Source: an uncultured Candidatus Saccharibacteria bacterium (GTDB lineage: Bacteria > Patescibacteriota > Saccharimonadia > Saccharimonadales > Saccharimonadaceae). Taken from it: DNA of 46,851 nucleotides. The DNA is taken from assembly GCA_947303945.1 (NCBI GenBank), contig CAMYZS010000011.1:1-46851 (forward strand). Direction: 5' to 3'. A program made the position numbers and the translations under genes. The notes beneath the pieces are model-generated. The model saw only the letters and a program-made list of their open reading frames with translations. It had not been told where the DNA came from and made no database searches. This document shows, one piece after another, positions 11,070-46,851 of the stretch (the first letter of the stretch is position 1; every line of letters starts with the position of its first letter).

Positions 11070-11708
11070 ATGGCAGTTAAAACATTTACGGTTCTCGTAG
11101 TTAACAGCAACGGACAGGTCGACAACATCACGACCCCCGCGGGGAGAAACGCAGCGGAGATTATTGCTGCGTTACGCCCCAACCAGGGCAGCAATACAAT
11201 CCTGGTATCCAACGACGGCGCGATTACAGTCGACTACACCCCCAATACTGCACCGAGCAACACGCTCAAGGATGCAATTATGGGAGAGGTTAAAGCCTGG
11301 GCTCGAACCGCTCCCGGCTACGGAACCAGAAGTGGCGACGGAGGCTGGGATACGCACCGCGCAACCGCTGTTCTTGCAAAAGACCACCGCACTGACGCTC
11401 AGAACAAGGAGGACGCAATCGCTTTCGTCCAGGGATGGCTCGACTACGTCGCAGGCGTTGGAGCTCCCGGCGGAAACAACGGCGGCGGGAACAACGGCGG
11501 ATCCGAAAACGGAAACGGCGGAAACAACGGCGGATCTGAAAACGGAAACAGCAGGAACAACGGCGGATCTGAAAACGGAAACGGCAGGAACAACGGCGGA
11601 TCCGGAAACGGAAACGGCGGGAACAACGGCGGCGGCCGCACGGCTACCGATCAGGAGCGCAGCGACTACCAGGCCGGAAAGGACCTGTATAACTCGCTCC
11701 GCAGATGA
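11070..11708 (+). CDS. Hypothetical protein with Gly/Asn/Ser-rich tandem-repeat linker (212 aa)
   Basis: Unrecognised. The N-terminal 50 residues look like a small beta-rich domain (TFTVLVVNSNGQVDN, then TILVSNDGAITVDY); about residues 65-130 form a helical region; about 132-188 are a low-complexity linker of 10-residue repeats (NNGGSENGNG type, 30-nt DNA period). A short charged helix-like tail (QERSDYQAGKDLYNSL) closes it. No signal peptide or transmembrane helix is visible, so secretion, if any, would need a non-classical route. The ATG at 11070 has a strong SD (AAGGGAGGA), with a structured 176-nt leader upstream and a terminator at 11771-11802. Function unknown. Confidence 0.7.
   Translation: MAVKTFTVLVVNSNGQVDNITTPAGRNAAEIIAALRPNQGSNTILVSNDGAITVDYTPNTAPSNTLKDAIMGEVKAWARTAPGYGTRSGDGGWDTHRATAVLAKDHRTDAQNKEDAIAFVQGWLDYVAGVGAPGGNNGGGNNGGSENGNGGNNGGSENGNSRNNGGSENGNGRNNGGSGNGNGGNNGGGRTATDQERSDYQAGKDLYNSLRR
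11466..11636 (+). repeat. 30-nt in-frame tandem repeats encoding Gly/Asn/Ser linker
   Basis: Units of about 30 nt (AACAACGGCGGATCCGAAAA-like, followed by CGGAAACGGC) recur about five times with small variations, inside the 11070-11708 gene. Copy number could vary between strains by slippage. Confidence 0.75.
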
Positions 11709-22578: not shown

Positions 22579-23637
22579 TCAAACATTAAATTTAAACTCT
22601 ACCACATCTCCATCACGCATCACGTAATCTTTTCCCTCCGTGCGCATCAACCCAGCTTCTCGTACGGCTTTTTCCGAACCGAGTCGCACCAAATCCTCGT
22701 ACGCACAAACCGTCGCCGCAATAAAGCCGCGCTGAAAATCCGTATGAATTGCCCCTGCCGCTTCTGGCGCCGTCGCCCCTTGTCTAATTGTCCAAGCGCG
22801 CGTCTCTTTCTTTCCTGCCGTCAGGAAACTTTGCAGGCCTAAAGTATCATAGGCCACACGAACCAACTGGCTTAAACCATCTTCCGAAATTCCATAGCTA
22901 TCTAAGAATTCTTTCTTTTCCTCCAATGCCATATCTGCCATTTCCGACTCAAGTTTCGCATTTACGAAAACACATTTTTGCGGTGCCACCATCTCTGCTA
23001 GTTCTTTGCGTTTTACTTCGTCGGCCAGCTCATTTTCGTCCATATTGAACATATAGAAAACCGGCTTTGCCGAAAGCAAGTCAAGCCCATCTATCGCCTC
23101 TATATGTGTCTTTCCAGATTGCAATTCCCCTAAGGCTTTTGCGGCCCACTCTGCGCGTTTCGCCGCATCCTTATTGCCACCACGCGCCTCTTTTTGAATC
23201 TTTGGCAAAGCTTTTTCTAATGTTTCAATATCAGCCAAAGCCAACTCGGTTTCCACCGTTTCAATATCGCGTTGCGGATTTGGACCACCCGCCACATGCG
23301 TAACATTCGCGTCTTCAAATACACGCACTACGTGGCAAATCACCTTACATTCACGAATATTAGCTAAGAATTTATTACCAAGCCCCTCACCCTTCGAAGC
23401 TCCAGCAATCAATCCCGCAATATCCACAAACTCAACCGTTGCTGGAACCACTTTGTCTGAATCATACATCTTCGCCAATACGTTTAATCTTTCATCTGGA
23501 ACACCCACGATTCCCGTATTTGGCTCTATTGTCGCAAATGGATAATTTGCTGCTAATGCACCTGCATTTGTTAGCGCATTAAAAAGCGTACTCTTCCCCA
23601 CATTAGCTAATCCAACAATACCGATCTTTAAACTCAA
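22579..23637 (-). CDS. ychF: Redox-regulated/ribosome-binding GTPase YchF (OLA1 family)
   Basis: Obg-like ATPase family. G1 is GLANVGKSTLFNAL, followed by NYPFATIEPN (switch I), FVDIAGLI (G3, DIAG), FYMFNMDENEL (the atypical NxxE G4 motif that gives ATP preference), a central coiled coil, and a C-terminal TGS domain (AWTIRQGATAPEAAG to the end KDYVMRDGDVVEFKFNV). The start is placed at TTG 23637 (MSLKIGIVG) with an AAGG SD 6 nt upstream; a TTG at 23643 would overlap the SD. The first 20 nt of this gene and its SD region are the template of the intergenic repeats that fill the next 6.5 kb (24689-30150). Confidence 0.95.
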   Translation of the reverse strand: MSLKIGIVGLANVGKSTLFNALTNAGALAANYPFATIEPNTGIVGVPDERLNVLAKMYDSDKVVPATVEFVDIAGLIAGASKGEGLGNKFLANIRECKVICHVVRVFEDANVTHVAGGPNPQRDIETVETELALADIETLEKALPKIQKEARGGNKDAAKRAEWAAKALGELQSGKTHIEAIDGLDLLSAKPVFYMFNMDENELADEVKRKELAEMVAPQKCVFVNAKLESEMADMALEEKKEFLDSYGISEDGLSQLVRVAYDTLGLQSFLTAGKKETRAWTIRQGATAPEAAGAIHTDFQRGFIAATVCAYEDLVRLGSEKAVREAGLMRTEGKDYVMRDGDVVEFKFNV

Positions 23638-23664
23638 AACCAACCTTTCTATCTGTTGTTATAG
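23618..23664 (-). repeat. ychF-start repeat, copy R0 (half-site, inside ychF start)
   Basis: The minus-strand sequence AACAGATAGAAAGGTTGGTT, followed by TTGAGTTTAAAGATCGG, is the SD/start region of ychF. It matches the left half of repeats R1-R5 but lacks the right arm (ATCTTGAATTTTTAAACCAA type). Confidence 0.8.
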
Positions 23665-23711
23665 ATATAGTTATAGCATAATGTGTGGTAGATTGGTACA
23701 AAAGGAGGCAA

Positions 23712-24054
23712 ATGCGAAGATCATTGGAGAGTTTAAGTAGAAGCCGTAATATGGATATGTCAAAAGACCCTGAAGCATTGCTAATTATGCGGATAAGCCA
23801 AAAACTTTTGAAGAACATATGAGAGAATTAAAAGACTTATTATCTTCGTTGCCAAATGATGAGAATGATACCACTGTTGATAATGATGAAAACATGATCA
23901 AGATGGCGAAAGTGGTAAGAGAAAAAATAAACTCAACACGATAAAAGATATAAAAAGGTTTATAGGTAAGGATAAGCAGATAAGTGTCGAGGAACTAAAC
24001 AAGAAAATAAATGACGGAATAAGCCTAGCTGATATTTCTCTTCTTTTTAAATAG
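23712..24054 (+). pseudogene. Small gene broken by frameshifts (unknown)
   Basis: A perfect SD (AAAGGAGG, 23701-23708) precedes ATG 23712, but the frame ends after 36 codons (TGA 23820-23822), overlapping an ATG at 23819 that opens 41 further codons to 23944. A third frame (DIKRFIGKDKQISVEELNKK, then INDGISLADISLLFK) continues to a stop at 24054. Just upstream of the 23819 ATG the second frame already reads like coding sequence (ADKPKTFEEHMRELKDLL). The simplest reading is one ancestral gene of about 110 codons with two frameshifts; two genuine overlapping small genes are the alternative. No family recognised. It is the first unit after ychF, on the opposite strand. Confidence 0.4.
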
Positions 24055-24499
24055 AAAGTTTATCTGCGACTATTTTTATGGATTTCTCTAAGGTTAGAGC
24101 GAGATTATTAAAGAAACATAGCGCATAAATGTTTAAATATAAATCTGGAGAATAGTCGAAGAACGAGATTAACTCCCACCAAGCACTTCTTATTAGTTCT
24201 GAAACATCATCATACTGAAGGTTTTCCCTAGAAGACGCTTGGATGAGTTTTATGGATGAATTTAGAATTAATTCTGCACAAGCGTTAAAGCGTATTACTT
24301 CACGTATAATTCGAGATTCATTTTCTGCTAGATTTAGCTTTAAACTTTCTGCGTTCATTTTGTATATATCAAGATTAAGCTCACTCATGGTTTCTGATAG
24401 TTTTTTGAATGCAGCTAGCCATTCATCAATAGTGTGTTTTTTGGTTGCAACGATAATTTTGTCTAAATAGTTTTTTGTAAATTCCTCATTTTTGATCAT
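24047..24499 (-). CDS. Hypothetical protein (150 aa), all-helical
   Basis: Unrecognised. It appears entirely alpha-helical, with no signal peptide or clear membrane helix and no catalytic motif. The ATG at 24499 has an SD-like AAGGGGA and an AT-rich upstream region with TATAAT. Its 3' end overlaps the end of the broken gene 23712-24054 by 8 nt, convergently. It lies between repeats R0 and R1 of the ychF-adjacent array, is AT-rich like the rest of that segment, and is probably accessory. Confidence 0.6.
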   Translation of the reverse strand: MIKNEEFTKNYLDKIIVATKKHTIDEWLAAFKKLSETMSELNLDIYKMNAESLKLNLAENESRIIREVIRFNACAELILNSSIKLIQASSRENLQYDDVSELIRSAWWELISFFDYSPDLYLNIYALCFFNNLALTLEKSIKIVADKLSI

Positions 24500-24524
24500 T
24501 ATCTAATCCCCTTATTTATTATAA

Positions 24525-24689
24525 TTATATCATTTTTGAGCCGCCCGATATCAAATCAGCTTCTTTTCCGTACAATCTTTTCCTTACTTTATTTATATAA
24601 GTATCCATATAAGTGTCCGAGAAACCGCGCTTTCCGTGGTCGGGTTTTGGTAGTCGGACTTTAACAAAGAATGGTATATATGGAGTCAT
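24525..24689 (-). CDS. Possible small basic protein (54 aa), doubtful
   Basis: The frame begins at ATG 24689, immediately after the right arm of repeat R1, and encodes a Lys/Arg-rich peptide (KVRLPKPDHGKRGF...). It has no SD, and no -10 box at leaderless spacing. It may be a remnant; I include it because it fills the gap between R1 and the 24047-24499 gene. Confidence 0.25.
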   Translation of the reverse strand: MTPYIPFFVKVRLPKPDHGKRGFSDTYMDTYINKVRKRLYGKEADLISGGSKMI

Positions 24690-24755
24690 TGGTTGGTTTA
24701 GAAATACAAGATTCCGATCTTTAAACTCATAGCCAACCCGCATAATCTGTTATTG
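24689..24755 (-). repeat. ychF-start repeat, copy R1
   Basis: On the minus strand: AACAGAT (24744-24750 region), then GGGTTGGCTATGAGTTTAAA, GATCGGAATCTTG and the right arm CTAAACCAACC. It contains ATGAGTTTAAAGATCGG, the first codons of ychF (M S L K I G), and folds back through GGTTGG/CCAACC and AAGAT/ATCTT. Confidence 0.85.
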
Positions 24756-24794
24756 TGGGAAAATTATAGCATATTTTGGTATATAATAATTATT

Positions 24795-25349
24795 ATGAAG
24801 TGTCTTGTAATGGCAGATACGAATCCAAATACCGACTTGTCACAATTGGCTGAAAATGAAAAGGTAGATTTAATCATATCTTTAGGGGATTTTGAGCGCT
24901 CAATGCTCTTATCCTTAGCGAAAACTAATATTCCAAAAATTGGTGTTTATGGTAATCATGATGCAGGAGAATATATGAATGAAATAGGTATGTTGAATCT
25001 ACATATGCATACCTGGAGTTATGGTAACTATACTTTTGGCGGTTTTCAAGGTTGCGTAAGATACAAAGAAAATCCACAAGCCATTATGTACACGCAAGAA
25101 GAAGCAGATAGGATGTTTGCGGTTTTTCCGCCAGTTGATATTTTTATATCACATTGTCCTCCTCGTGGAATTAATGACGAGGAGGAAATTGCTCACCAAG
25201 GTTTTGATGGCTTAAAGAGTTATATAGATAGATGTCATCCTAAGGTCTTGCTACATGGCCACACGTATCCGACTGAAGAAAATATGGTTCGGGATTACAA
25301 TGGGACACGAATTGAATACGTCTTCGGTTATAAAATAATTGAAATCTGA
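24795..25349 (+). CDS. Calcineurin-like metallophosphoesterase (184 aa)
   Basis: Compact metal-dependent phosphoesterase: MADTNPN at the first metal position (where D-x-H is usual), ISLGDFER (GD), GVYGNHDAG (GNHD), IFISHCPPRG (H) and VLLHGHTYP (GHxH). The first motif is D-x-N rather than D-x-H, a deviation at a metal ligand. Start at ATG 24795: TATAAT at 24782-24787 ends 7 nt upstream, no SD, probably leaderless; an in-frame ATG at 24753 lies upstream of the promoter and is rejected. Single gene between repeats R1 and R2. Confidence 0.8.
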   Translation: MKCLVMADTNPNTDLSQLAENEKVDLIISLGDFERSMLLSLAKTNIPKIGVYGNHDAGEYMNEIGMLNLHMHTWSYGNYTFGGFQGCVRYKENPQAIMYTQEEADRMFAVFPPVDIFISHCPPRGINDEEEIAHQGFDGLKSYIDRCHPKVLLHGHTYPTEENMVRDYNGTRIEYVFGYKIIEI

Positions 25350-25368
25350 TTAAAAATTCCTACGAAAA

Positions 25369-25434
25369 AAGGTTGGTTTAAAAATTCAAGATTCCGATCT
25401 TTAAACTCATAACCAGCCTGTGATATCTGTTGTC
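25369..25434 (-). repeat. ychF-start repeat, copy R2
   Basis: Minus strand: AACAGATATCACAGGCTGGT, TATGAGTTTAAAGATCGG, AATCTTGAATTTTTAAACCA, ACCT. It matches R0 through the whole ychF start, including the upstream AACAGATA, and adds the right arm. Confidence 0.88.
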
Positions 25435-25470
25435 ATTAATATTATAACATTAAAATGTTATAATATTAAT
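25435..25470. promoter_or_regulatory. Perfect 17-bp palindrome overlapping the -10 box of the 25491 gene
   Basis: The 17-nt arm at 25435-25451 (starting ATTAATATTATAAC) and its exact reverse complement at 25454-25470 flank a 2-nt AA centre. The right arm contains TATAAT (25459-25464), correctly placed for a start near 25471. By symmetry the left arm carries TATAAT on the minus strand. It could be an operator or a back-to-back promoter pair. Confidence 0.6.
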
Positions 25471-25490
25471 AGTAGGTAGGAAAGTATAAA

Positions 25491-25904
25491 ATGAGCAAAA
25501 AGAAACTAGAGATAAGTCGGTATAATTGGAGTTTGAGGGGCCCTGGTTCGTGGGACAAAATGAAGTGGGAGATATTCGATGATTTGTCTATTGTTATAAC
25601 GGTTGAGTATCTTGAAGTTGAGGCTATTGGACAAAAAGTTTATGAATATACAATTAGACAAGAGGAATTTGATAGTTTGGTAGATAATATTGCTCTCGCT
25701 AAAGAGATAAATGTACTTGCAGGTGGTGGCTCTAGAAGTGATGGGGAAGCGTGGACTTTTGTAGAATATAATGATGATGGCTCAATTAAATGGATGCGCG
25801 ATCCTGGATATATTTATGGTATAAAACCTTTAGAAAACATTTCTAAATATTTATTAACTTCCATAGAAGAAAGCGAAGAGCTATTGCTGTTTTTAGATAT
25901 TTGA
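25491..25904 (+). CDS. Hypothetical protein (137 aa)
   Basis: Unrecognised acidic, soluble protein with alternating beta-like segments (WEIFDDLSIVITVEYLEVE), a Gly/Ser loop (NVLAGGGSRSDGEAWTF) and a helical C-terminus; no signal peptide or catalytic signature. The ATG at 25491 follows an SD-like AGGAAAG and the palindromic promoter at 25435-25470, so unlike its neighbours it is probably SD-led and possibly repressor-controlled. Single gene between repeats R2 and R3. Confidence 0.65.
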   Translation: MSKKKLEISRYNWSLRGPGSWDKMKWEIFDDLSIVITVEYLEVEAIGQKVYEYTIRQEEFDSLVDNIALAKEINVLAGGGSRSDGEAWTFVEYNDDGSIKWMRDPGYIYGIKPLENISKYLLTSIEESEELLLFLDI

Positions 25905-25939
25905 TGAATAAGCTTTGATAATGAATAGAATATAAAAAA

Positions 25940-26008
25940 AAGGTTGGTTTAAAAATTCAAGATTCCGATCTTTAAATTCATAACCAACCTGTTTTATTTT
26001 GTATCTGT
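25940..26008 (-). repeat. ychF-start repeat, copy R3
   Basis: Minus strand: AACAGATACAAAATAAAACA, GGTTGGTTATGAATTTAAAG, ATCGGAATCTTGAATTTTTA, AACCAACCT. The outer AACAGATA block is part of the last codons (I-T-D-T-K) of the nucleotidyltransferase gene. Confidence 0.86.
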
Positions 26009-26782
26009 TATTATGCCATATTTCTCGATAAATTGCTGCTCGAGTACTCCTAATAGTTCTTTGGCTTTTGAGATGTTGTTTTCGATATCTTCAAATGAGC
26101 TTACTCTATAGAATTGTTCTAGTTTTTGAACTATTTCTTGTGGCAAGTGGTCGTTGATATGACAGAGGCCATATTCCAAATGATTCGGAGTATAGATAAT
26201 TCTAGCAATAGTAACTAGCGGGTCTGCAATATTTTCAATATATTTTAAATACGCTTCGCCGTATTGATTCCTCTTGATATATTTTATAACTCTACTGGAT
26301 TGAAGAATCCGGTTTTTGCTATTATTGAAAGCTTTCTGTAATTTTTCTATGTTTAATTTAGGGGTATTTTTAAAAGTAATAATATTGTCTTTATCAAATT
26401 GGATTAACGGTTTTTCGGCTAGATCATTTTTAGTAAAACAAGTTGCGTCCAGTCCGCGTATTTCGTGGGATTGAACACAAATATCTAGTGTTAGATATTC
26501 GGATGTATTTGCAAGATGTATATTGCTTTGTGCAATTTCTTTGCGTATTTCATCGACTCGTGAGTCTATCTCACCGAGCTTTTGCAGTTCCTTAATGCAT
26601 TCATGAAGAAACGACTCTTGATATTCTTTTTTCACGTCAAACCAAAAATCAATATCGGAATAATCGTCAACTTTATCCAACCCATCCGCACCCTCAAGCC
26701 ACATGGCAAAAACGTAGTCTTTTGAGGACGCAAAATTCCGTAAATATTCTACGATTCTTTCCCTAGTAATTTCTGGTTTCAC
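25994..26782 (-). CDS. Nucleotidyltransferase-fold protein (aminoglycoside-adenylyltransferase-like)
   Basis: The N-terminal Pol-beta nucleotidyltransferase core has the signature LEGADGL...DDYSDIDFWFDV (G-x..D-x-D), with a later strand LTLDIC that may supply the third carboxylate; the C-terminal helical domain (about residues 140-262) resembles those of small-molecule adenylyltransferases of the AadA/Lnu type. Antibiotic modification is possible but unproven. Start at GTG 26782 (MKPEITRERI): TATAAT (complement of 26789-26794) ends exactly 6 nt upstream, and the ATG at 26806 lies upstream of that box. The stop lies inside repeat R3. A decayed second copy is at 28607-29095. Confidence 0.75.
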   Translation of the reverse strand: MKPEITRERIVEYLRNFASSKDYVFAMWLEGADGLDKVDDYSDIDFWFDVKKEYQESFLHECIKELQKLGEIDSRVDEIRKEIAQSNIHLANTSEYLTLDICVQSHEIRGLDATCFTKNDLAEKPLIQFDKDNIITFKNTPKLNIEKLQKAFNNSKNRILQSSRVIKYIKRNQYGEAYLKYIENIADPLVTIARIIYTPNHLEYGLCHINDHLPQEIVQKLEQFYRVSSFEDIENNISKAKELLGVLEQQFIEKYGIITDTK

Positions 26783-26850
26783 ACAGTAATTATAACATTT
26801 TTCCACTTTGGTTTTGGCAAGTGGATTTTGGTACTAAACGGAATAAAAGA

Positions 26851-26918
26851 AACAGGTTGGTTTAAAAATTCAAGATTCCAATCTTTAAATTCATAACCAA
26901 CCTGTGATATCTGTTAAT
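26851..26918 (-). repeat. ychF-start repeat, copy R4
   Basis: Minus strand: TTAACAGATATCACAGGTTG, GTTATGAATTTAAAGATTGG, AATCTTGAATTTTTAAACCA, ACCTG. Outer arms CAGGTTGGTT/AACCAACCTG pair perfectly (10 bp). Confidence 0.87.
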
Positions 26919-26958
26919 TTATATATTATTATACTATATTTTTATATATAATGAAGAC

Positions 26959-27699
26959 ATGTGTGTCTTGAAGACTACAAAAGGATATACGAACGCAAGA
27001 TTGATATTGTGCGGCGGTGGTTCTGGAGAACAAAATTACTACGCTAATCAGAAATTAAACGAGATCATAGATCATAATAAGCCCTTACTTTATATTCCTT
27101 TAGCTATGGACGAAAACGTTCATTCATATGATAGCTGTTATGAATGGATAAAAAAAGAGCTGTCGCAAGTTTCCTTCGCCGGGATAAAGATGGTTAGAAG
27201 CTTTAAGGATTTGGCTGAAAAAGAATTTAATGATTACTCTGCTTTGTTTATTGGTGGCGGAAATACTTATAAACTGTTAAAAGGGTTGAAGGATAACGGT
27301 ATATTCTCGAAAATCATAGATTATTTAGATGGTGGCGGTGCAATCCTTGGTTCGAGTGCTGGAGCTGTAATATTTGGGTATGGCATAAATAGCATTTCTA
27401 TGATGGATCCAAATAATGTGGGTTTGAAAGAGACAAAAGGTTTTAATGTTTTAGACGGTGTTTCTATATTCCCGCACTACACAAATAATAAGCTTGAGCT
27501 ATCAGAAGATGAAAATGAAAAGAGATTCCGTAATTTTACTGATTCAATTATAAATTACTCAAATTTGGTTGGAGATGTAATTGCTATACCGGAAGAAGAT
27601 GCAATCTTTGTTCATGACGGTAAAGTGGAGATTCTCGGAAGTAGGCCTTATTATTTCTTTAGAAAAGGCAAGTCTCAGAAAATAGATGTTTCAAAATGA
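26959..27699 (+). CDS. Peptidase E-like (family S51) serine peptidase
   Basis: Resembles alpha-aspartyl dipeptidase PepE. It has ILCGGGSG at the N-terminus, YSALFIGGGNTYKLL (the GGGNT segment), the nucleophile elbow ILGSSAGAV (catalytic Ser) and, downstream, SIFPHYTNN (probable catalytic His region) and VIAIPEEDAIFV. 246 residues, typical. Family members cleave N-terminal Asp dipeptides; related ones process other acyl or peptide bonds. The ATG at 26959 is 6 nt after TATAAT (26947-26952), no SD, leaderless. Single gene between repeats R4 and R5. Confidence 0.82.
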   Translation: MCVLKTTKGYTNARLILCGGGSGEQNYYANQKLNEIIDHNKPLLYIPLAMDENVHSYDSCYEWIKKELSQVSFAGIKMVRSFKDLAEKEFNDYSALFIGGGNTYKLLKGLKDNGIFSKIIDYLDGGGAILGSSAGAVIFGYGINSISMMDPNNVGLKETKGFNVLDGVSIFPHYTNNKLELSEDENEKRFRNFTDSIINYSNLVGDVIAIPEEDAIFVHDGKVEILGSRPYYFFRKGKSQKIDVSK

Positions 27700-27718
27700 G
27701 ATAATAGCTTTTTAAAAT

Positions 27719-27775
27719 AGGCTGGTTTAGAAATTCAAGATTCCAATTTTTAAACTCATAGCCAACCCGCGAATC
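27719..27775 (-). repeat. ychF-start repeat, copy R5
   Basis: Minus strand: CGGGTTGGCTATGAGTTTAA, AAATTGGAATCTTGAATTTC, TAAACCAGCCTA. It has diverged at the GATCGG block, and the outer AACAGATA block is weak (TAATGATTC). Confidence 0.82.
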
Positions 27776-27888
27776 ATTACCTTTTACCTATGCAAATAAT
27801 AAGATGTTATAATAGCATAATAAATCAAAGATATTAAACTGAGCCAACTGCTTATTTTCCAAACGAATATTTTTAAGGAGATGACAAA

Positions 27889-28575
27889 ATGAGTAATTCC
27901 CAAGAATATCAAAAAGGCTGGAAATGGAACACGTTGCAGTCAGAAAAAGATAGGAAGCAATGGTTGACGCCGTCACTTGAGGTTTATTCGTTTCTTTATC
28001 GTTGGAAAGAACAAAATCGAAAAGACTTTCTTGATCTCGGATGCGGCATTGGTCGTCACGCACTGATTTTTGGCAAACAAGGATTCAATGTTAATTTTTC
28101 AGACATAGTGCCAGATGCGGTTAAGCAGACAGAATCGCTTCTGAAGAAAGCAGATATTCCATGCTCTGGACGAATTGAAGATATGGAAAACATGTCTTTT
28201 GACGACAATTCTTTTGACTGCATTCTAAGTTGGCAAGTAATTAATCATAACGACACTAAAGGCGTTAAGAAAACGATTTCCGAGATCCATCGTGTCCTGA
28301 AACCAAACGGCGAAGTCGCTCTCACGATTCCGTCAAAGAAAACTTGGGGTTTTAGACAAGATTGGCCGATTGTTGATGAAAACACAAAGTTAAATATGGC
28401 TAATCCGGTAGAAAATCAAGTTCCCCATTTTTATGCTGACTATGCTTTAATAAAAGAATTATTTAAAGATTTTAAGCTTCTAAAAGTCGACGAAGTTTGC
28501 CAATGCAGACAATTTGAAAGTGGTCGAGAAAGTTTAGACTCCTATAAATTTATCATTCTTGCTCGCAAAAAGTGA
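27889..28575 (+). CDS. Class I SAM-dependent methyltransferase
   Basis: Rossmann-fold methyltransferase: motif I FLDLGCGIGRHALIFG (SAM-binding GxGxG region, about residue 45), motif II-like acidic position SDIVPDAV, FDCILSWQVINHN (motif IV/Methyltransf_11 pattern), then HRVLKPNGEVALTIP (motif VI region). The substrate is not predictable. The ATG at 27889 has a strong SD (AAGGAG) and a TATAAT about 75 nt upstream (27810-27815 region), so this unit uses a normal leader. It lies between R5 and R6 together with the decayed nucleotidyltransferase copy, with which it is convergent. Confidence 0.85.
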   Translation: MSNSQEYQKGWKWNTLQSEKDRKQWLTPSLEVYSFLYRWKEQNRKDFLDLGCGIGRHALIFGKQGFNVNFSDIVPDAVKQTESLLKKADIPCSGRIEDMENMSFDDNSFDCILSWQVINHNDTKGVKKTISEIHRVLKPNGEVALTIPSKKTWGFRQDWPIVDENTKLNMANPVENQVPHFYADYALIKELFKDFKLLKVDEVCQCRQFESGRESLDSYKFIILARKK

Positions 28576-28606
28576 CATCTTTCTCTACTCTTTATTTATA
28601 TAAGCG

Positions 28607-29095
28607 TTAGAATAAATCTGTTATCGTATTATATTTTCCGACAAAAATACGCTCTAATAATTCTAGTAAATCTTTAGCTTCTAGAATATTCCTCTCAATA
28701 TCTTCAAATGAAGCTATTTTATAGAACTTCTCTAGATTTTGAACTATTTCTTTTGGTAAATGATCATTAATATGGCAAAGACCATAATCTAGATGGTCTG
28801 GCGTATAAATAATTCTAGCAATAGTAACCAATGAATTAGCGATATTCTTATTGTATTTTAGATAAGCTTCACCATATTGATTCCTCTTGATATACTTTGT
28901 AACTCTACTAGATTGAAGAATTCGGTTTTTGCAATTGTTAAATATTTTTTGCAACTTCTCTACGTTTAATTCTGGCTTTTCTTTAAAAGTGATGGCATTA
29001 TTCTTATCAAATAAGATTAATGGCCTTTCAGCTAAATCGTTTTTAGTAAAACACATTGAACCTAAGCCACGTATTTCGCGGGATTCTTCATGCAA
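28607..29095 (-). pseudogene. Truncated duplicate of the nucleotidyltransferase gene
   Basis: The remaining 160 codons match the C-terminal part of the 25994-26782 product closely (for example CFTKNDLAE, then QYGEAYLKY and YGLCHINDHLP shared). The N-terminal catalytic half with the D-x-D signature is gone; the junction lies near 29085-29095, where LHE is joined to REIRG. The upstream flank (TATAATATTCTTTCCATTTT, then GGTTTTAG on the plus strand) and repeat R6 also match the flank and repeat R4 of the intact copy, so the duplicated unit was gene plus repeat. It is unlikely to be active. Confidence 0.85.
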
Positions 29096-29149
29096 TTATT
29101 ATAATATTCTTTCCATTTTGGTTTTAGCGGCTAAAAATAGAATAAAAAA

Positions 29150-29213
29150 GACTGACTTTTAAAAATCAAGATTTCAATCCTCAAACCCATAACCACCTCA
29201 CAATACCTACTAT
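29150..29213 (-). repeat. ychF-start repeat, degenerate copy R6
   Basis: Minus strand: GAGGTGGTTATGGGTTTGAG, GATTGAAATCTTGATTTTTA, AAAGTCAGTCTT. It is recognisable by the conserved order GTGGTTATG / AATCTTGA / right arm, but diverged at about a quarter to a third of positions by eye. Confidence 0.65.
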
Positions 29214-29253
29214 TAGGGCGTAACTATACCGTGTTTTATCCTATAATATAAGT

Positions 29254-30072
29254 ATGGACAGACTAGAATTAGACAGTAAGCTGTTTTCTTTTGATTTAAA
29301 TATAGACTTATTATATGGCTTAAAATATTGCATGAATCGCGAAAAAGGAGAGCTGAAACCATATAACACCACTGAAAAAACGAAAGTAATTGAGAATTTC
29401 TATGCCCTCTATCAACAGCAAGACAATATTGATGCGAAGCAAATTGCTACTTTTGGGGATTTTCAGCAAATAGCCAAAAAAGCTCTTACTAAACACAACG
29501 TTCATCTTCCTACCCTGGAGCAATATTTAATAAGCTTAAGCCTCCTAAAGCAGCGTGTTTTAGATGACTTTTTACAAAAACCCGGTTTGAATGAAATACG
29601 GTTTAGCCAAATAAAATCATTTTTTGGCTTTAGTCTTTCCGATTCCGTTAAGATATATCTGAGCTTTTTCGTTTCTGGAGGATTTGGCTTTTTATTAGAT
29701 AATAAGTCAATCATAGTACTCGGCGTTAAATATAATAAGTCAAAAGACCAGTATGGCACAAACGGAACCCTGGTCTGCAAAATCATCCATGAATTTGCCC
29801 ACCCATACGTAAAGAAAGCAATTATTGGTAGAAATATTACTACTAACGATAATGTCCCATATTATTATGCTAATAATAAAACTGAAGAAATATTAACACG
29901 CGTAGTAGAGATAATATTTTCCGGCCAGATTTTTGGTCAAGAATATATAAATTGGGCTATCAAAGAACAACGAAATGATGGCTTCCAGACTGTTGAAAAA
30001 ATTGTCGAAAGATACATTAAAAATCGAAATAGAATTCGGAAATTTGACGACTTATTAAAACTAGCAGTCTGA
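29254..30072 (+). CDS. Hypothetical HExxH zinc-metallopeptidase-like protein (272 aa)
   Basis: A predominantly helical protein with IIHEFAHPYV (HExxH) near residue 182 and TEEILTRVVEIIF about 30 residues later, where a Glu could be the third zinc ligand; this is zincin-like (gluzincin spacing). There is no signal peptide, so an intracellular role is likely; the substrate is unknown. The ATG at 29254 is exactly 6 nt after TATAAT (29242-29247), without SD, so leaderless. Single gene between degenerate repeats R6 and R7. Confidence 0.7.
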   Translation: MDRLELDSKLFSFDLNIDLLYGLKYCMNREKGELKPYNTTEKTKVIENFYALYQQQDNIDAKQIATFGDFQQIAKKALTKHNVHLPTLEQYLISLSLLKQRVLDDFLQKPGLNEIRFSQIKSFFGFSLSDSVKIYLSFFVSGGFGFLLDNKSIIVLGVKYNKSKDQYGTNGTLVCKIIHEFAHPYVKKAIIGRNITTNDNVPYYYANNKTEEILTRVVEIIFSGQIFGQEYINWAIKEQRNDGFQTVEKIVERYIKNRNRIRKFDDLLKLAV

Positions 30073-30080
30073 GTAATTGT

Positions 30081-30150
30081 AAGCTGGCTTAAAATTCAAA
30101 ATCCCTATTTTCAAGCCCCCAATCTCCAACTCTACGGTCTACTCGTAATC
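30081..30150 (-). repeat. ychF-start repeat, very degenerate copy R7
   Basis: The minus-strand block GGGATTTTGAATTTTAAGCC, AGCTT matches the right arm of R2-R5 with several changes; the left half (AGAGTTGGAGATTGGGGGCT) is only loosely similar. It is the last detectable copy. Confidence 0.45.
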
Positions 30151-42208: not shown

Positions 42209-45200
42209 TTAATCACCTAAATACCATGTCGGAAGCGGAGCAGATGATGAGACTCTATCAAATGTCCCATTCTTAGATAATAAGCTTGAAGTATCCCAGT
42301 CATTAAGCGGCTCAAAGGTTAAAACGCCAGACAAGCCATAAAACATATTATCAACATTTCTAACCTTAGAAGTATCCCAGCCGGCAATCGCTTCAACGGA
42401 AGTGAGCCTAAATAAACCCTGGAACATCGCTGACATATCTAGCACATTCGAGACATCCCAATTGGCTAAAACACTTATATCAACAAGACCTTGGTCATTT
42501 GCGAACATATTATTCATGTCCGTCACATTTATGGTATCCCAACTAGCTAAAGCGTCTATATTAGTAAGGTTAGAAGTGCTCTGAAAAGTAGCACTCATAT
42601 TTATTACGTTTGAAGTATTCCAACTAGCTAAACCACTAATATCAGCTAATTGCGATGTGGCGCGGAACAAAGAGCTTAAATTTGTTACGTTATCAATATT
42701 CCAACCAGAAAGTGCATTTACATTGGTTATTCTGGTGCCATAAAACATATTGGATATATCCGTAATATTTGATGTGTTCCAATTTGCAGCACCATCAATA
42801 TTAGTCAAGCTAGAGACAGCACGAAACATGCCATGCAACGATGTAGTTTTCGAGAAATCCCAATTAGCTAGCGCATTTATGTTATTAATTCTCGTACTAC
42901 GAAACATTTCGTTCATATCCTCCACATTCGAGGTATCCCAATTTATTGCACCACCAATATCAGCTAAACTGGATGCACCATTAAACATATCGCTCATATT
43001 GGCTACGCTTATTGTAATCCAGCCGAGAGCGCCATTAATATTTGCAAGACTAGAAGCCGAATAGAACATATTGCTCATATTCGTAACACTAGAAGTATTC
43101 CAATTAGCGGCACCATCTATATTAACTAAGCTAGAGGCATCTTGAAACATATAGTTCATATTAGTAACACTAGAAGTATCCCAGTTGATGGCCCCGTCTA
43201 TATTTTCTAAGCTAGAGGCGCTATAGAACATGTAGCTCATATTCGCCACCTTAGGCGTGTCCCAATTGATTGCTCCGTCTATATTGGTCAGACTTGACGC
43301 ATTACGAAACATCCCGTTCATATCTGTCACATTTGATGTATCCCAATTCGCAAGCGCATCTATATCCGCAAGTTTGGAAACTTTCTGAAACATATAGCTC
43401 ATATTCGCCACTTTAGAGGTATTCCAACCTGTCGCTCCGCCTATATCAATAAGATTCGACGCGCCGCGAAACATGCTACTCATATTTGTCACATTGGAAG
43501 TATCCCAATTAGCTAACGCATCTATATTCGTAAGGCTAGAAGCGTTAGTGAACGTGCCATTCATATTCGTCACTTTAGAGGTATCCCAATTACTAGCGCC
43601 GTCAATGTTCGTTAAGCTAGAGGCGCCAGAGAACATAATATTCATATTTGTCACTTTAGAGGTATTCCAATTACTAGCGCCATCTATATTGATAAGACTA
43701 GTCGCATTACTAAACATAGAAACCATATTTGTCACGCTCGAAGTATTCCAATTAGCTAATGCATCTATGTTTGTAAGGCTATTCGTATCGCGAAACGCAT
43801 AACTCATATCAGCAACCTTAGAAGTATCCCAATTAGCCAAGGCATCTATATTAGCTAGGCTAGAGGCGCCAGAAAACATAATATTCATATGCGTCACCTT
43901 AGAAGTATCCCAATTAGCTAATGCATCTATGTTAGTAAGGCTAGAAGCGTTAGTGAATATTTCGGTCATCTTCGCTACCTTAGAAGTATTCCAATTAGCC
44001 AAGGCATCTATATTCGTAAGACTGGCCGTATAACGGAACGCTCCGCCCATATCTACAACATTTGAAACATCCCAACCAGCAAGCCCAGAAATATCAACTA
44101 ATCGCGTAAATTGATTAAACAAATAAGCTAAGTTGTTTGCTTTAATTTTATCTGCCTCGGAGTAGATATAGATTGAGCCATCAGTATCATCAAACCAAGC
44201 ATAGATTGGTACTGGTGAGTTTGTAGCCGAGATAATTGCCGCACTAGCCTCTTGTACTGGATTCATACTAGTAGCAGTCTTTACGGCCGTAATAGTTGTA
44301 TTCTGTGTTTTGTAGGTTGCATCGGATTGGCCAGATAATTTTTTAAGTGCTGCATTGATGTTTTGTCCATTATCTAGTACTGCGGTTATTTCTTCTTTAA
44401 CTTCCCCATCCATGCTCTTAGAGATAGAAGGCTTAGCCCAAGTGGCACGTAGTATTACATCATCCTCCATTAGTTTGAAGTAGTCATCATTAAGGATTCT
44501 GGAATCACCCTCAGCAATCTCCCAACCATTAAAGTTGTAGCCACTACAAGATAATGTATTATTAGATTTCTGAACTACTGCTAATGGTTGGTAGTCTTGT
44601 TCAATTGGAACCGTACCTTCGTAGCTACTACAGTCACTAGGTAGATTAGCTTCGTAGCTTATTTTGTAGCTAGATTTAAGTACGGGAGTAAGTTCACTCT
44701 CTATGTTTTCGTCTAATACTTCTGGGATAGTGGTTTGGATGGTTTCATGATCATTAGTTGGTAGGAAGGTGCCTTCTGGGATAGTACTAGCATTCTTAAT
44801 GGTGACATCTATGGTTAATTGAGCAGTATGGCCAGACATTAAGGCATTATTCATTGTCCAGGTTACTACTGGCGTATTGTTGTTGTAGTTTAGGGCTGTC
44901 TCGCCAATAGAGGCTTCTACTGCATCTATACTATCTACATCCCAGTATTCATCATTGATGTAGTCGGTGAGGGTAAAGTCTTCGTAAGTATACGGAGCGA
45001 GACTTGCTTCAAAGAGGACGTCTCTTAGCGTGCTCATGTTAGCAATGAACTGGTTATCTGAGACTTTCTTAATTGGATCGAGTATTTCGTCGCCCATTTC
45101 GTATTGGATGCCATTAATGGTCATGTAAGGATACATAGCTTTTATGGCTTGGTATTCTGGTATCTCATTCGGTGTTTGCTTGTTTGGATAACCGTCAGTA

Positions 45201-46851
45201 AGGAACAATAGAATAAGTTCACGGTTCTCTTGCTTTTGGTAGCCTTCAAGGACTTCTTCGGCCTTCTTAAAACCATCATAATAATTAGTGTGATCATGCG
45301 GCGAGATATTATTTATTAAAGACAATAAAGATGTTTTGTTATTACTCAAACCACTCATAATATGAGCACTACCATTGAAGTTTATGAGCGCAATACGATT
45401 TTCCGTATCGGCCAAAATTTCTTCAACTAGCTCCGACGCATCATGCTTAAGTTGCGCAATCTTCTCCCCCCTCATCGAGCCGGAGCTGTCTACGACCATC
45501 ACGATGTCTAGATTGGCATTATTTGCAACTTTGGCGACCGTATCGACATCAAAGGTTATTCTTGCTTTGCCCTGCTCTATCCATTTGGCACTCTTAGTTA
45601 CATGCCAGGAACCAGGATCGCCATTGGCGTAGCTTGCATGCTGGGAGGTGAGTTCGATGGATTTAATGACTTCGGTATAGTTTGCGGCATAGGTAAGTTT
45701 GGCAATAATACCACCAATAATGACACTAACTATGGCCAGGGCCGACAAAGCGTAGTGTAGAGTACGCTTGCTTCGACTTATTCTAATACAGGGGATGCAG
45801 GATAGCCTATCTTTGAGGTCTCGTTTCTTTGAGGTTGCGACAGTAAAGGCTAAGATTCCAACCCCCAAGCCCACTAAGCCTACATACGGTAAGGCATTGA
45901 AGATGATGCCAGTAAAGGGTACGGGTTCGGGGATGGTTTTAAAGTCTATAGTAGCTTTGTATTCTTTGTCTGTATCAAGAATGTGATCTTCAGCTAAGGC
46001 GCCAGTTAGCTCTACTGTATTAGTGAGAGTTTGAGCTTTGTTCTCGGTTACCTTGTATTCAGCATAGACGTCGATGCTAGAGTTTGCGGCAATGGTTGGG
46101 ATTACTGCTATGGTGCTGGTCTTAATGGTGTAGGAATCGTCAGCAGGAGACGCAAAGATGGCACCGTCAAGTTCTTCTTGGAGATAGACATCCGTTATTT
46201 TATATGCGGCTGTATTAGTGACAGTAACTTTAAACTTGACGGTTTCGCCATACATGTAGTCGTCTTTTGAATTAATGATGCTCTTTACTATGGTTGGGGT
46301 AAACTTATCCATGGCTCTAGTCCATTCGCCCTGGATGGTAACGTTTCCTTCTGGCATCGTGAAGCTTGCGTTCTTGTACCAGCCTAGGAAGTTATAGCCA
46401 TCAGCTTGTGGGTCAGCTGCGGTCGTTACAGTCTCACCTGGATAATAGGTTTCACATGGTGGAAGGAGTGAGTTGGCATCATCTGGGGATACTGCACCCT
46501 CAAACTCATAGCAGACCTTGTAGCTTACGCGTTCAAAGCTACCCGTTAGAGTAACGTTACCCTCTGGCATCGTAAAGCCAGTTTCACTTAGGGTTGCGTC
46601 TTGGGTGGACCAGCCAGAGAATTTGTAACCATCAATAACAGTATCCTTGGCGGTTGAATCGAGATCTACGGTAGTACCAGCCTCGTATTCTTTCTGAGCA
46701 GGCGGCATAAAGTCTGCTGGCTTATCTCCATTTACGACATAAGTGACATTGCATTTAGTATTAGCCGTATTTTTGGTCCAGATACCAACTAGCTCCACGT
46801 CTTGGCCGGGCATAGTGAAGGAGCCGTCCGTTACCGTAGCATCAGATGTAG
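42209..46851 (-). CDS. Giant surface protein: Listeria-Bacteroides-type repeats, VWA domain and BspA-like repeats (5' partial)
   Basis: Open to the window edge, so the N-terminus is missing; at least 1,546 codons. Numbering residues from the in-frame ATG at 46813, the order is: at least three Flg_new/InlB-B-type repeats (pattern YKFSGW...FTMPEGNVTL), a DUF11/Cna-like domain (VKFKVTVTNTAAYKITDV), then VPFTG plus a transmembrane helix (about 305-328) and KKRD. A short basic cytoplasmic loop and a second transmembrane/signal-like helix follow (about 352-378, ending LTYAANY). Next is a VWA domain with the MIDAS motif VVDSSGSMRG and FLTDGYPN (about 430-620), another Flg_new-like segment, and 23 BspA-like 27-residue repeats (WDTSKVTNM...MF...ASSL.NID) to the C-terminus LPTWYLGD. 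Likely cell-surface adhesion to a host bacterium or matrix. Confidence 0.85.
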   Translation of the reverse strand, partial: TSDATVTDGSFTMPGQDVELVGIWTKNTANTKCNVTYVVNGDKPADFMPPAQKEYEAGTTVDLDSTAKDTVIDGYKFSGWSTQDATLSETGFTMPEGNVTLTGSFERVSYKVCYEFEGAVSPDDANSLLPPCETYYPGETVTTAADPQADGYNFLGWYKNASFTMPEGNVTIQGEWTRAMDKFTPTIVKSIINSKDDYMYGETVKFKVTVTNTAAYKITDVYLQEELDGAIFASPADDSYTIKTSTIAVIPTIAANSSIDVYAEYKVTENKAQTLTNTVELTGALAEDHILDTDKEYKATIDFKTIPEPVPFTGIIFNALPYVGLVGLGVGILAFTVATSKKRDLKDRLSCIPCIRISRSKRTLHYALSALAIVSVIIGGIIAKLTYAANYTEVIKSIELTSQHASYANGDPGSWHVTKSAKWIEQGKARITFDVDTVAKVANNANLDIVMVVDSSGSMRGEKIAQLKHDASELVEEILADTENRIALINFNGSAHIMSGLSNNKTSLLSLINNISPHDHTNYYDGFKKAEEVLEGYQKQENRELILLFLTDGYPNKQTPNEIPEYQAIKAMYPYMTINGIQYEMGDEILDPIKKVSDNQFIANMSTLRDVLFEASLAPYTYEDFTLTDYINDEYWDVDSIDAVEASIGETALNYNNNTPVVTWTMNNALMSGHTAQLTIDVTIKNASTIPEGTFLPTNDHETIQTTIPEVLDENIESELTPVLKSSYKISYEANLPSDCSSYEGTVPIEQDYQPLAVVQKSNNTLSCSGYNFNGWEIAEGDSRILNDDYFKLMEDDVILRATWAKPSISKSMDGEVKEEITAVLDNGQNINAALKKLSGQSDATYKTQNTTITAVKTATSMNPVQEASAAIISATNSPVPIYAWFDDTDGSIYIYSEADKIKANNLAYLFNQFTRLVDISGLAGWDVSNVVDMGGAFRYTASLTNIDALANWNTSKVAKMTEIFTNASSLTNIDALANWDTSKVTHMNIMFSGASSLANIDALANWDTSKVADMSYAFRDTNSLTNIDALANWNTSSVTNMVSMFSNATSLINIDGASNWNTSKVTNMNIMFSGASSLTNIDGASNWDTSKVTNMNGTFTNASSLTNIDALANWDTSNVTNMSSMFRGASNLIDIGGATGWNTSKVANMSYMFQKVSKLADIDALANWDTSNVTDMNGMFRNASSLTNIDGAINWDTPKVANMSYMFYSASSLENIDGAINWDTSSVTNMNYMFQDASSLVNIDGAANWNTSSVTNMSNMFYSASSLANINGALGWITISVANMSDMFNGASSLADIGGAINWDTSNVEDMNEMFRSTRINNINALANWDFSKTTSLHGMFRAVSSLTNIDGAANWNTSNITDISNMFYGTRITNVNALSGWNIDNVTNLSSLFRATSQLADISGLASWNTSNVINMSATFQSTSNLTNIDALASWDTINVTDMNNMFANDQGLVDISVLANWDVSNVLDMSAMFQGLFRLTSVEAIAGWDTSKVRNVDNMFYGLSGVLTFEPLNDWDTSSLLSKNGTFDRVSSSAPLPTWYLGD
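42250..44110 (-). repeat. 81-nt in-frame tandem repeats (23 BspA-like units)
   Basis: Twenty-three units of about 27 codons, each starting with W-(D/N)-x-S-x-V-x-x-M and containing M-F and a NID/DI block. DNA identity is highest in the upstream and middle units (units 2-13), lower towards the C-terminus, suggesting recent unit duplication. Confidence 0.9.

Follow-up and report, generated by a model that had tools for sequence, protein, structure and literature searches.

The 5' end of ychF, which encodes the redox-regulated ATPase YchF, probably serves as the fixed acceptor of a gene-cassette system in Saccharibacteria, with the repeats upstream of the gene as its recombination sites. The window analysed here is the whole stretch of 46,851 bp that makes up contig CAMYZS010000011.1 (G000:C11), one of 45 contigs in an assembly of 1.29 Mb, whose affiliation with Saccharibacteria was inferred from the best matches to its YchF. 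In each of the 48 arrays that were retrieved together with ychF, the sites are found immediately upstream of this gene, and the arrays comprise 85 units. That such arrays at ychF are made up of cassettes is close to certain, and they appear to represent a previously undescribed, integrase-less look-alike of the integron.

In the window, ychF is located on the minus strand at 22579..23643 (TIGR00092, E=5.5e-127, together with its translation), and its start codon is likely the TTG at 23637 (MSLKIGIVGLANVGKST). To the right of the gene, and therefore upstream of it, five dyad sites of 50 bp follow on the minus strand at a spacing of 571-913 bp: R1 (24690..24739, GG at 24714-24715), R2 (25370..25419, GG at 25394-25395), R3 (25941..25990, GG at 25965-25966), R4 (26854..26903, GG at 26878-26879), and R5 (27719..27768, GG at 27743-27744). 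Their consensus on the ychF strand is AGGTTGGTTATGAATTTAAAGATCGGAATCTTGAATTTTTAAACCAACCT, the left half of which corresponds to the ribosome-binding region, the start codon and the first six codons of ychF. The acceptor R0 (23597..23646, minus strand, crossover dinucleotide GG at 23621-23622) is a hybrid junction, since its left half is of the cassette type with ribosome-binding site (RBS), start codon and codons 1-6, whereas its right half is the body of ychF. The initial annotation had described R1 to R5 as fold-back repeats with an outer 9-bp dyad and an inner AAGAT/ATCTT around CGGA, and R0 as a left half only, and all of this is present in the sequence, although R5 lies beyond the span 24689-26918 that it had given. 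In addition, there is a decayed site R6 (~29150..29199, minus strand; GAGGTGGTTATGGGTTTGAGGATTGAAATCTTGATTTTTAAAAGTCAGTC), which is followed by a recognisable unit end (AAAACCAAAATGGA), and perhaps a site R7 (~30080..30129, minus strand), a tentative and very weak match (E=0.17) just past the gene at 29254-30072. A search of the whole genome finds the repeat in this array only, and a reversed-pattern control gave no match in 45 genomes, compared to 16 for the real pattern; the copies are therefore not due to chance.

The point of exchange can be read from a stray unit of genome G026 (L123:9165-10105 on G026:C3), which has inserted not at ychF but in front of a tRNA-Arg gene, within its promoter region. 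When the flanks of this unit are joined, the predicted empty site results, and this sequence exists in both G005 and G036 with 100% identity (112 nt) and in G031 with 95% identity. The target reads AAGATT-GG-GGTC and the unit ends are GATA-GG and AGTC, and the two products, AAGATTGG-AGTC and GATAGG-GGTC, are both as expected, with no duplication of the target. The markers that border GG on either side have each kept their parental linkage, which confines the exchange to GG itself. Target and site share only ...AAGATNGG. Two bases past GG, this unit has a G in place of A, for which there is no explanation. The tRNA-Arg gene of G026 is apparently also split by a separate island, which encodes a tyrosine integrase of its own and adjoins a complete second copy of tRNA-Arg.

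The arrays at ychF place the breakpoint from one side. In ychF, the codon position that follows GG is free to vary, and where it holds a base other than A, the buried proximal site carries A in 16 arrays and the base of ychF in a single one, so that the breakpoint does not lie to the right of GG. The dyad of the 85 unit-intrinsic sites is centred between the two G, where the 24-bp arms are 67% complementary, compared to 53% for the next-best offset and 31% on average. Moreover, the left arm is not AGGTTGGTT-like in eight of the 48 outermost sites, but in none of the 37 inner ones (P=0.009). Several of these outermost non-consensus sites carry the native ychF promoter ATAACAGATATG, those of G045, G309 and G330 have the native ATAACAGATAT start, and the left half of the G016 junction equals the left half of the ychF start of G006. 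As judged from their sequences, the outermost non-consensus sites are the junctions of the first insertion. The breakpoints prove site-specific recombination, and the exchange most probably occurs at the central dinucleotide. A crossover at or after GATCGG had been predicted, and the left-half identity to ychF indeed ends exactly there; likewise, breakpoints and markers bear out the proposal that the ychF start is the genomic, attB-like target and the repeats are the sites of the elements.

What a unit brings to ychF becomes apparent when the 85 units are aligned from crossover to crossover. They have two conserved ends of ~75-80 bp each, one of which begins with AATCTTGAATTTYTAAACCAACCTATTTYTTTTATCCCATTTTC, while the other corresponds to the region of the ychF promoter (ACCAAAATATGTTATAATTATACC-N-ATAATAACAGATATCACAGGTTGGTTATGAATTTAAAGATCGG), so that a unit spans AATCTTGAATTTYTAAACCAACC... 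to ...TGTTATAAT-N(13)-ATAACAGATA-NNN-AGGTTGGTTATGAATTTAAAGATCGG. The ychF-proximal end comprises a predicted promoter, an RBS, the start codon and the first six ychF codons, as in unit 2 of the window, where promoter, leader, RBS and start are found at 24694..24783 on the minus strand (ATATGCTATAATTTTCCCACAATAACAGATTATGCGGGTTGGCTATGAG...). Because each unit ends in this way, every insertion would rebuild a complete ychF, and a unit appears to carry a full replacement for the ychF start that it displaces. A new promoter and new start codons for the target gene, which are predicted here in all 85 units, are also a feature of elements that integrate at 5' ends: IMEVchUSA3 was experimentally shown to replace the displaced start of its target gene dusA, and the same was reported for SXT at prfC (PMC8409611). 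Relatives without arrays often have a shorter native ychF start, in which the -10 box, AACAGAT and ATG follow in immediate succession (TATAATAACAGATATGAG); with only few bases between -10 box and AACAGAT, this native gene often looks leaderless. At the opposite end of the unit, which begins with the crossover (e.g., 24525-24739 of the window, minus strand), the sequence can be read as a conserved peptide, NLEFLNQPISFIPFSIKIHLPKPKWKN or ...RLPKPDHGKRGFSD..., and its changes look synonymous, as if it had descended from coding sequence.

The arrays are largely restricted to two genera. A query with one repeat matched 13 genomes among 151 relatives. A sequence model, which was built from 18 sites and searched in 394 genomes of the Saccharibacteria family, matched 144 of them at E<=0.001. 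A strong match to the full site (E<1e-9) was obtained in at least 76 of the 394 genomes, 10 in the genus of the window (g1) and 66 in a second genus (g2), and there were almost no matches to the model outside these two. Within the arrays the orientation of the sites is uniform, with one inverted site in G191 as the sole exception. The 85 units have 331-2337 bp, with one unit of 6076 bp counted within, are stacked head to tail and mostly contain one or two genes. Their 113 open reading frames (ORFs), of which 80 are oriented away from ychF, fall into 88 families. Among the 25 Pfam families shown, out of 65, are CdiA C-terminal toxin domains (7) and NUDIX (4), and furthermore serine hydrolases, peptidase S51, the metallo-beta-lactamase fold, nucleoside deoxyribosyltransferases, NYN, methyltransferases and others, whereas none of these 25 is a recombinase. 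Searches of the unit ORFs with Xer and serine-recombinase sequences did not find a recombinase either. ORFs of 129 amino acids (aa) recur in units of G353, G306, G354, G409, G414, G394 and others, some with a CdiA C-terminal toxin-type domain, and are often paired with an ORF of 100-120 aa, a possible immunity partner. A second decayed site away from ychF, apparently another secondary location, is found at the right end of G445:C9 (L310:8800-9300) beside tRNA-like genes.

The proteins of the units are often far closer between genomes than the host gene. The protein of unit 1 in the window has a 91% identical counterpart in a cassette of G404, from another genus, and the methyltransferase of unit 6 is 89% identical to a cassette protein of G350 (85% to that of G045), whereas YchF reaches only 60-61% in the comparisons with G404 and G350. 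A counterpart of the unit 3 protein is present in a G353 cassette, from the other genus (80% identity), and one of the unit 4 protein in a G409 cassette (68%). Of 153 protein pairs, 31 show a higher similarity for the unit protein than for YchF. Judging by these identities, the units move between species and also between genera.

We propose the following mechanism. A unit would exist as a small circle with one complete, attP-like site of 50 bp, and a recombinase supplied in trans would join this circle to the start of ychF, the attB. The exchange of a central 2 bp and the dyad of 50 bp make a serine recombinase the most likely candidate, and we consider the chances that the enzyme is of the serine type to be about even. 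The insertion would leave a complete ychF under the promoter of the new unit, with the older units displaced outward. As the left half of the unit imitates the left half of attB, the junction R0 would remain a good target, which would explain that arrays grow only at ychF and in a fixed orientation, and that full sites are found inside the array but a half site at ychF. A reaction of a buried site with R0 could release units again, and the outermost junction would preserve the original left half of ychF as a record of the first insertion. Now and then, units land elsewhere, at a place that offers only ...AAGATNGG. Since Saccharibacteria are naturally competent (PMC10633639), small circles or fragments could possibly enter the cells by this route.

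Several observations weigh against this explanation. The enzyme was identified neither among the unit ORFs nor among the resident recombinases nor in the neighbourhood of the arrays. The clean bound of 2 bp comes from one stray insertion and from one-sided markers at ychF. The sequences are assemblies, mostly metagenomic, in which neither a circle nor an excision was observed. Of the 42 g2 genomes with arrays, 13, all of them >=94% complete, have no serine recombinase (PF00239), and neither have G026 and G029. In g1 these enzymes do not track the arrays, as they occur in ~6 of 10 genomes with and in 11 of 35 genomes without an array. Where the position of resident large serine recombinases could be assigned, they adjoin tRNA genes, and beside none of 51 recombinase loci was a related site found when compared with the reversed control.

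Xer, with one copy per genome, is nearly universal and present in essentially all more complete genomes. Other tyrosine recombinases are sporadic: the second one of G000 is encoded on another contig, and recombinase models match upstream of the array in only two of the 48 loci (G191 and G430), in both cases with an Xer/XerA-type protein well under the cut-off for integron integrases. An integrase near the sites had been suggested as a check, but no recombinase was found bound to them or encoded beside them. Second tyrosine recombinases were rejected as candidates, also because most g1 array genomes have Xer only. Just upstream of the G191 array with the inverted site (L307:810-3310), a tyrosine recombinase resembling XerA/XerC is encoded together with a small ORF, and a similar recombinase on G000:C35 likewise has a small upstream ORF. 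The resident large serine recombinases were rejected as well, being diverse, located at tRNA-type sites where placed, and absent from 13 of the 42 g2 array genomes. At L209-L220, large serine recombinases lie beside restriction-modification-like islands, the placed ones adjoining tRNA-Glu-like and tRNA-Leu-like genes, and one of their families is 99% identical between two genera. As tyrosine enzymes other than the one Xer are sporadic, serine enzymes are absent from part of the array genomes and Y1 enzymes are nearly absent, we infer that the enzyme acts in trans, perhaps encoded on visiting phages or plasmids.

A specific form of this proposal regards the units as satellites, which hitch-hike on large serine recombinases that transient phages, plasmids or islands bring along. 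We regard it as quite possible, if somewhat short of an even chance. Enzymes of the serine type cleave at the dinucleotide in the middle of the dyad, and on attP a dimer of a serine integrase occupies 50 bp, 25 bp for each half-site (PMC3783163). This footprint is matched by the 50-bp pseudo-palindrome of the ychF sites with its 25-bp half-sites and the exchange at a central dinucleotide. Serine recombinases are also common (29 of the 42 g2 array genomes) and diverse, and because visiting elements come and go, the resident set need not hold the enzyme. However, each resident enzyme that could be placed uses another site, and no element with its own recombinase is integrated at the ychF start in any of the 48 arrays. 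Furthermore, the strict site pattern has no match in 2.9 million viral contigs, in which one loose match lies inside apparently unrelated sequence, and a similarity search of plasmid and phage records returned no similar record. Large serine integrase systems share the dyad, the central exchange and a distinct target with the ychF units, but these are too small for an integrase, none is encoded beside the site, the hybrid junction would remain a target, and units accumulate in tandem.

It is unlikely that the chromosomal Xer recombinase moves the units as modules flanked by dif-like sites, as known for pdif modules. Xer is the only recombinase that essentially all more complete genomes have, and arrays of Xer-flanked modules, which are moved by a host recombinase in trans, are known (PMC12907356). 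Like the Xer (dif/pdif) modules of Acinetobacter, the ychF units are bounded by short sites, can form arrays and do not encode their recombinase. But a dif site of 28 bp with a 6-bp centre between 11-bp arms does not fit the length, symmetry and breakpoint of the ychF site, and the ychF system has a single acceptor. A 6-bp central region on the dyad predicts breakpoints 3 bp to either side of its centre, and both products in G026 exclude them. In addition, tyrosine exchange normally needs a homologous overlap, whereas unit (GAATCTT) and ychF (GTATTGT) would have a non-homologous one. The core of the site is presumably also unlike the usual dif arms.

Far less probable is an integron-like reaction, in which a tyrosine integrase recombines a folded attC-like strand with an attI-like site at ychF. 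The architecture, the size of the units and the diversity of their genes match integron cassettes, the target is recognised one-sidedly with a single preferred breakpoint, and several copies of the site fold well as single strands. The initial annotation had likened the repeats to attC for this folded geometry and suggested structure prediction on single-stranded DNA, which supports it for some of the copies only: R3 (z -4.2) and R4 (z -3.8) fold significantly and R1 (z -2.4) and R2 (z -1.6) more weakly, whereas R5 (z -1.1) and R0 show no significant folding, and two of the five window copies fold scarcely better than shuffled sequence. Moreover, over the 85 units the arms show no covariation, neither in situ nor within a unit, as had been noticed for the arm variants in the window, and there is no conserved single-strand structure in the unit ends, with just a weak 8-bp helix at the junction. 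The attC geometry fails because the exchange point would sit in the apical loop of the fold instead of the box at the stem base, and attC-type folding was rejected on account of the breakpoint position and the missing covariation. A conserved RNA spanning the junction (the bridge-RNA idea) was rejected as well, as no consensus structure extends past the weak helix. Integron integrases are also lacking: G042, G029 and G045, like most g1 array genomes, have arrays but Xer only, which scores 134 bits against a cut-off of 265 in the integron-integrase model.

Still less probable is single-strand transposition by HUH (Y1) enzymes of the IS200/IS605 kind with ...AAGATNGG as target. A one-sided target directly 5' of the insertion, the fixed orientation, the absence of a target duplication and a unit end that repeats the target would agree with it. 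Of 38 array genomes, however, 33 lack Y1 transposases and a 34th has just one sub-threshold fragment, so that these enzymes were rejected; conserved subterminal hairpins were not found in the units, and a dyad spanning the joint is unexpected for such elements. Transposition with target duplication is excluded as a full explanation. The same applies to homologous recombination after natural transformation via shared flanks, to which we assign a slighter chance still. Competence would allow it, and as the flanks and ychF are conserved, whole arrays could be swapped in this way, so that it may add to the spread of units. Yet it cannot yield the insertion in G026, where target and unit share only ~8 bp, and leaves the consistent GG breakpoint unexplained. 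Least probable of all, and likewise excluded as a full explanation, are repeats that merely insulate genes as terminators or RNA elements without recombination: T-runs follow the right arm in about one third of the copies and a buried site holds a promoter, a start codon and an in-frame stop, but a terminator scan is empty at the sites, neither covariation nor a conserved RNA fold points to a role at the RNA level, in agreement with what had been argued from the arm variants, and the exact empty counterpart of the filled tRNA-Arg site, which refutes a terminator as sole explanation, as well as the junction markers, the ychF-start copies at every join and the exchange of genes between genera would be left without a cause.

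The arrays work like an integron, yet they lack features that define one. As in integrons, small and mostly single-gene units of diverse function are arranged in tandem with their sites in one orientation (85 units in 48 arrays), growth occurs at a fixed acceptor with old decayed units at the far end, and the enzyme would be supplied in trans, not by the units. In contrast to integrons, there is no intI-type tyrosine integrase beside the array in any of the 48 loci, cleavage takes place in the middle of a 50-bp dyad and not at the stem base of a folded attC with R and L boxes, and the acceptor is the coding start of a housekeeping gene in place of a dedicated attI platform. Furthermore, the ychF units bring promoters with them and make the gene at which they insert complete again. 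In the latter respect they resemble SXT and the dusA islands, which insert within the 5' end of a housekeeping gene and make it whole again with a promoter and codons of their own (PMC8409611), but those are large, encode their own integrase and are present in one copy per site, whereas the ychF units of ~1 kb encode none and are repeated in a row. We consider it about as likely as not that this is a second, independently evolved cassette system, analogous but not homologous to integrons, with recombinase-less units, a serine-type exchange of the central dinucleotide at a 50-bp dyad, a re-supplied ychF promoter and start, and an enzyme in trans. No account of such arrays in Saccharibacteria or Patescibacteria was found in the open literature searched, which excludes subscription journals and preprints; this absence is weak evidence. 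Integrons are the textbook case of collecting genes in arrays, and ultrasmall, genome-reduced episymbionts would have an equivalent without any integron parts. The arrays also show how genes for hydrolases, methyltransferases, NUDIX enzymes, CdiA-type toxin domains and others circulate among species and genera of Saccharibacteria, and the ychF promoter and first codons that are carried along would allow units to accumulate within a housekeeping gene that stays intact. The identity of the enzyme that recombines the 50-bp site with ychF is now a clear and testable question.

In the window, mostly one gene lies between consecutive sites. Drawn from crossover to crossover, unit 1 (23623..24714) contains a gene for 150 aa without Pfam family (24047-24499, minus strand), unit 2 (24715..25394) a calcineurin-like phosphoesterase (24798-25349, plus strand; PF00149, E=1.1e-8), and unit 3 (25395..25965) a gene for 137 aa to which no function was assigned (25491-25904, plus strand). 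Unit 4 (25966..26878) has a gene for 270 aa without Pfam or NCBIfam match (25994-26806, minus strand), and unit 5 (26879..27743) a peptidase S51 (26959-27699, plus strand; PF03575, E=6.6e-28). Unit 6 (27744..29174) carries two genes, the methyltransferase (27889-28575, plus strand) and a shortened paralogue of the unit 4 gene (28607-29095, minus strand). The old unit 7 (29175..30104), whose outer end is tentative, contains the gene at 29254-30072 (plus strand) with a weak DUF4932 match. Apart from the array, an ORF of 1534 aa at 42209-46813 comprises at least 12 tandem repeats of 81 bp (27 aa), and five 33-bp repeats are found at 11452-11649 within a glycine- and asparagine-rich ORF.

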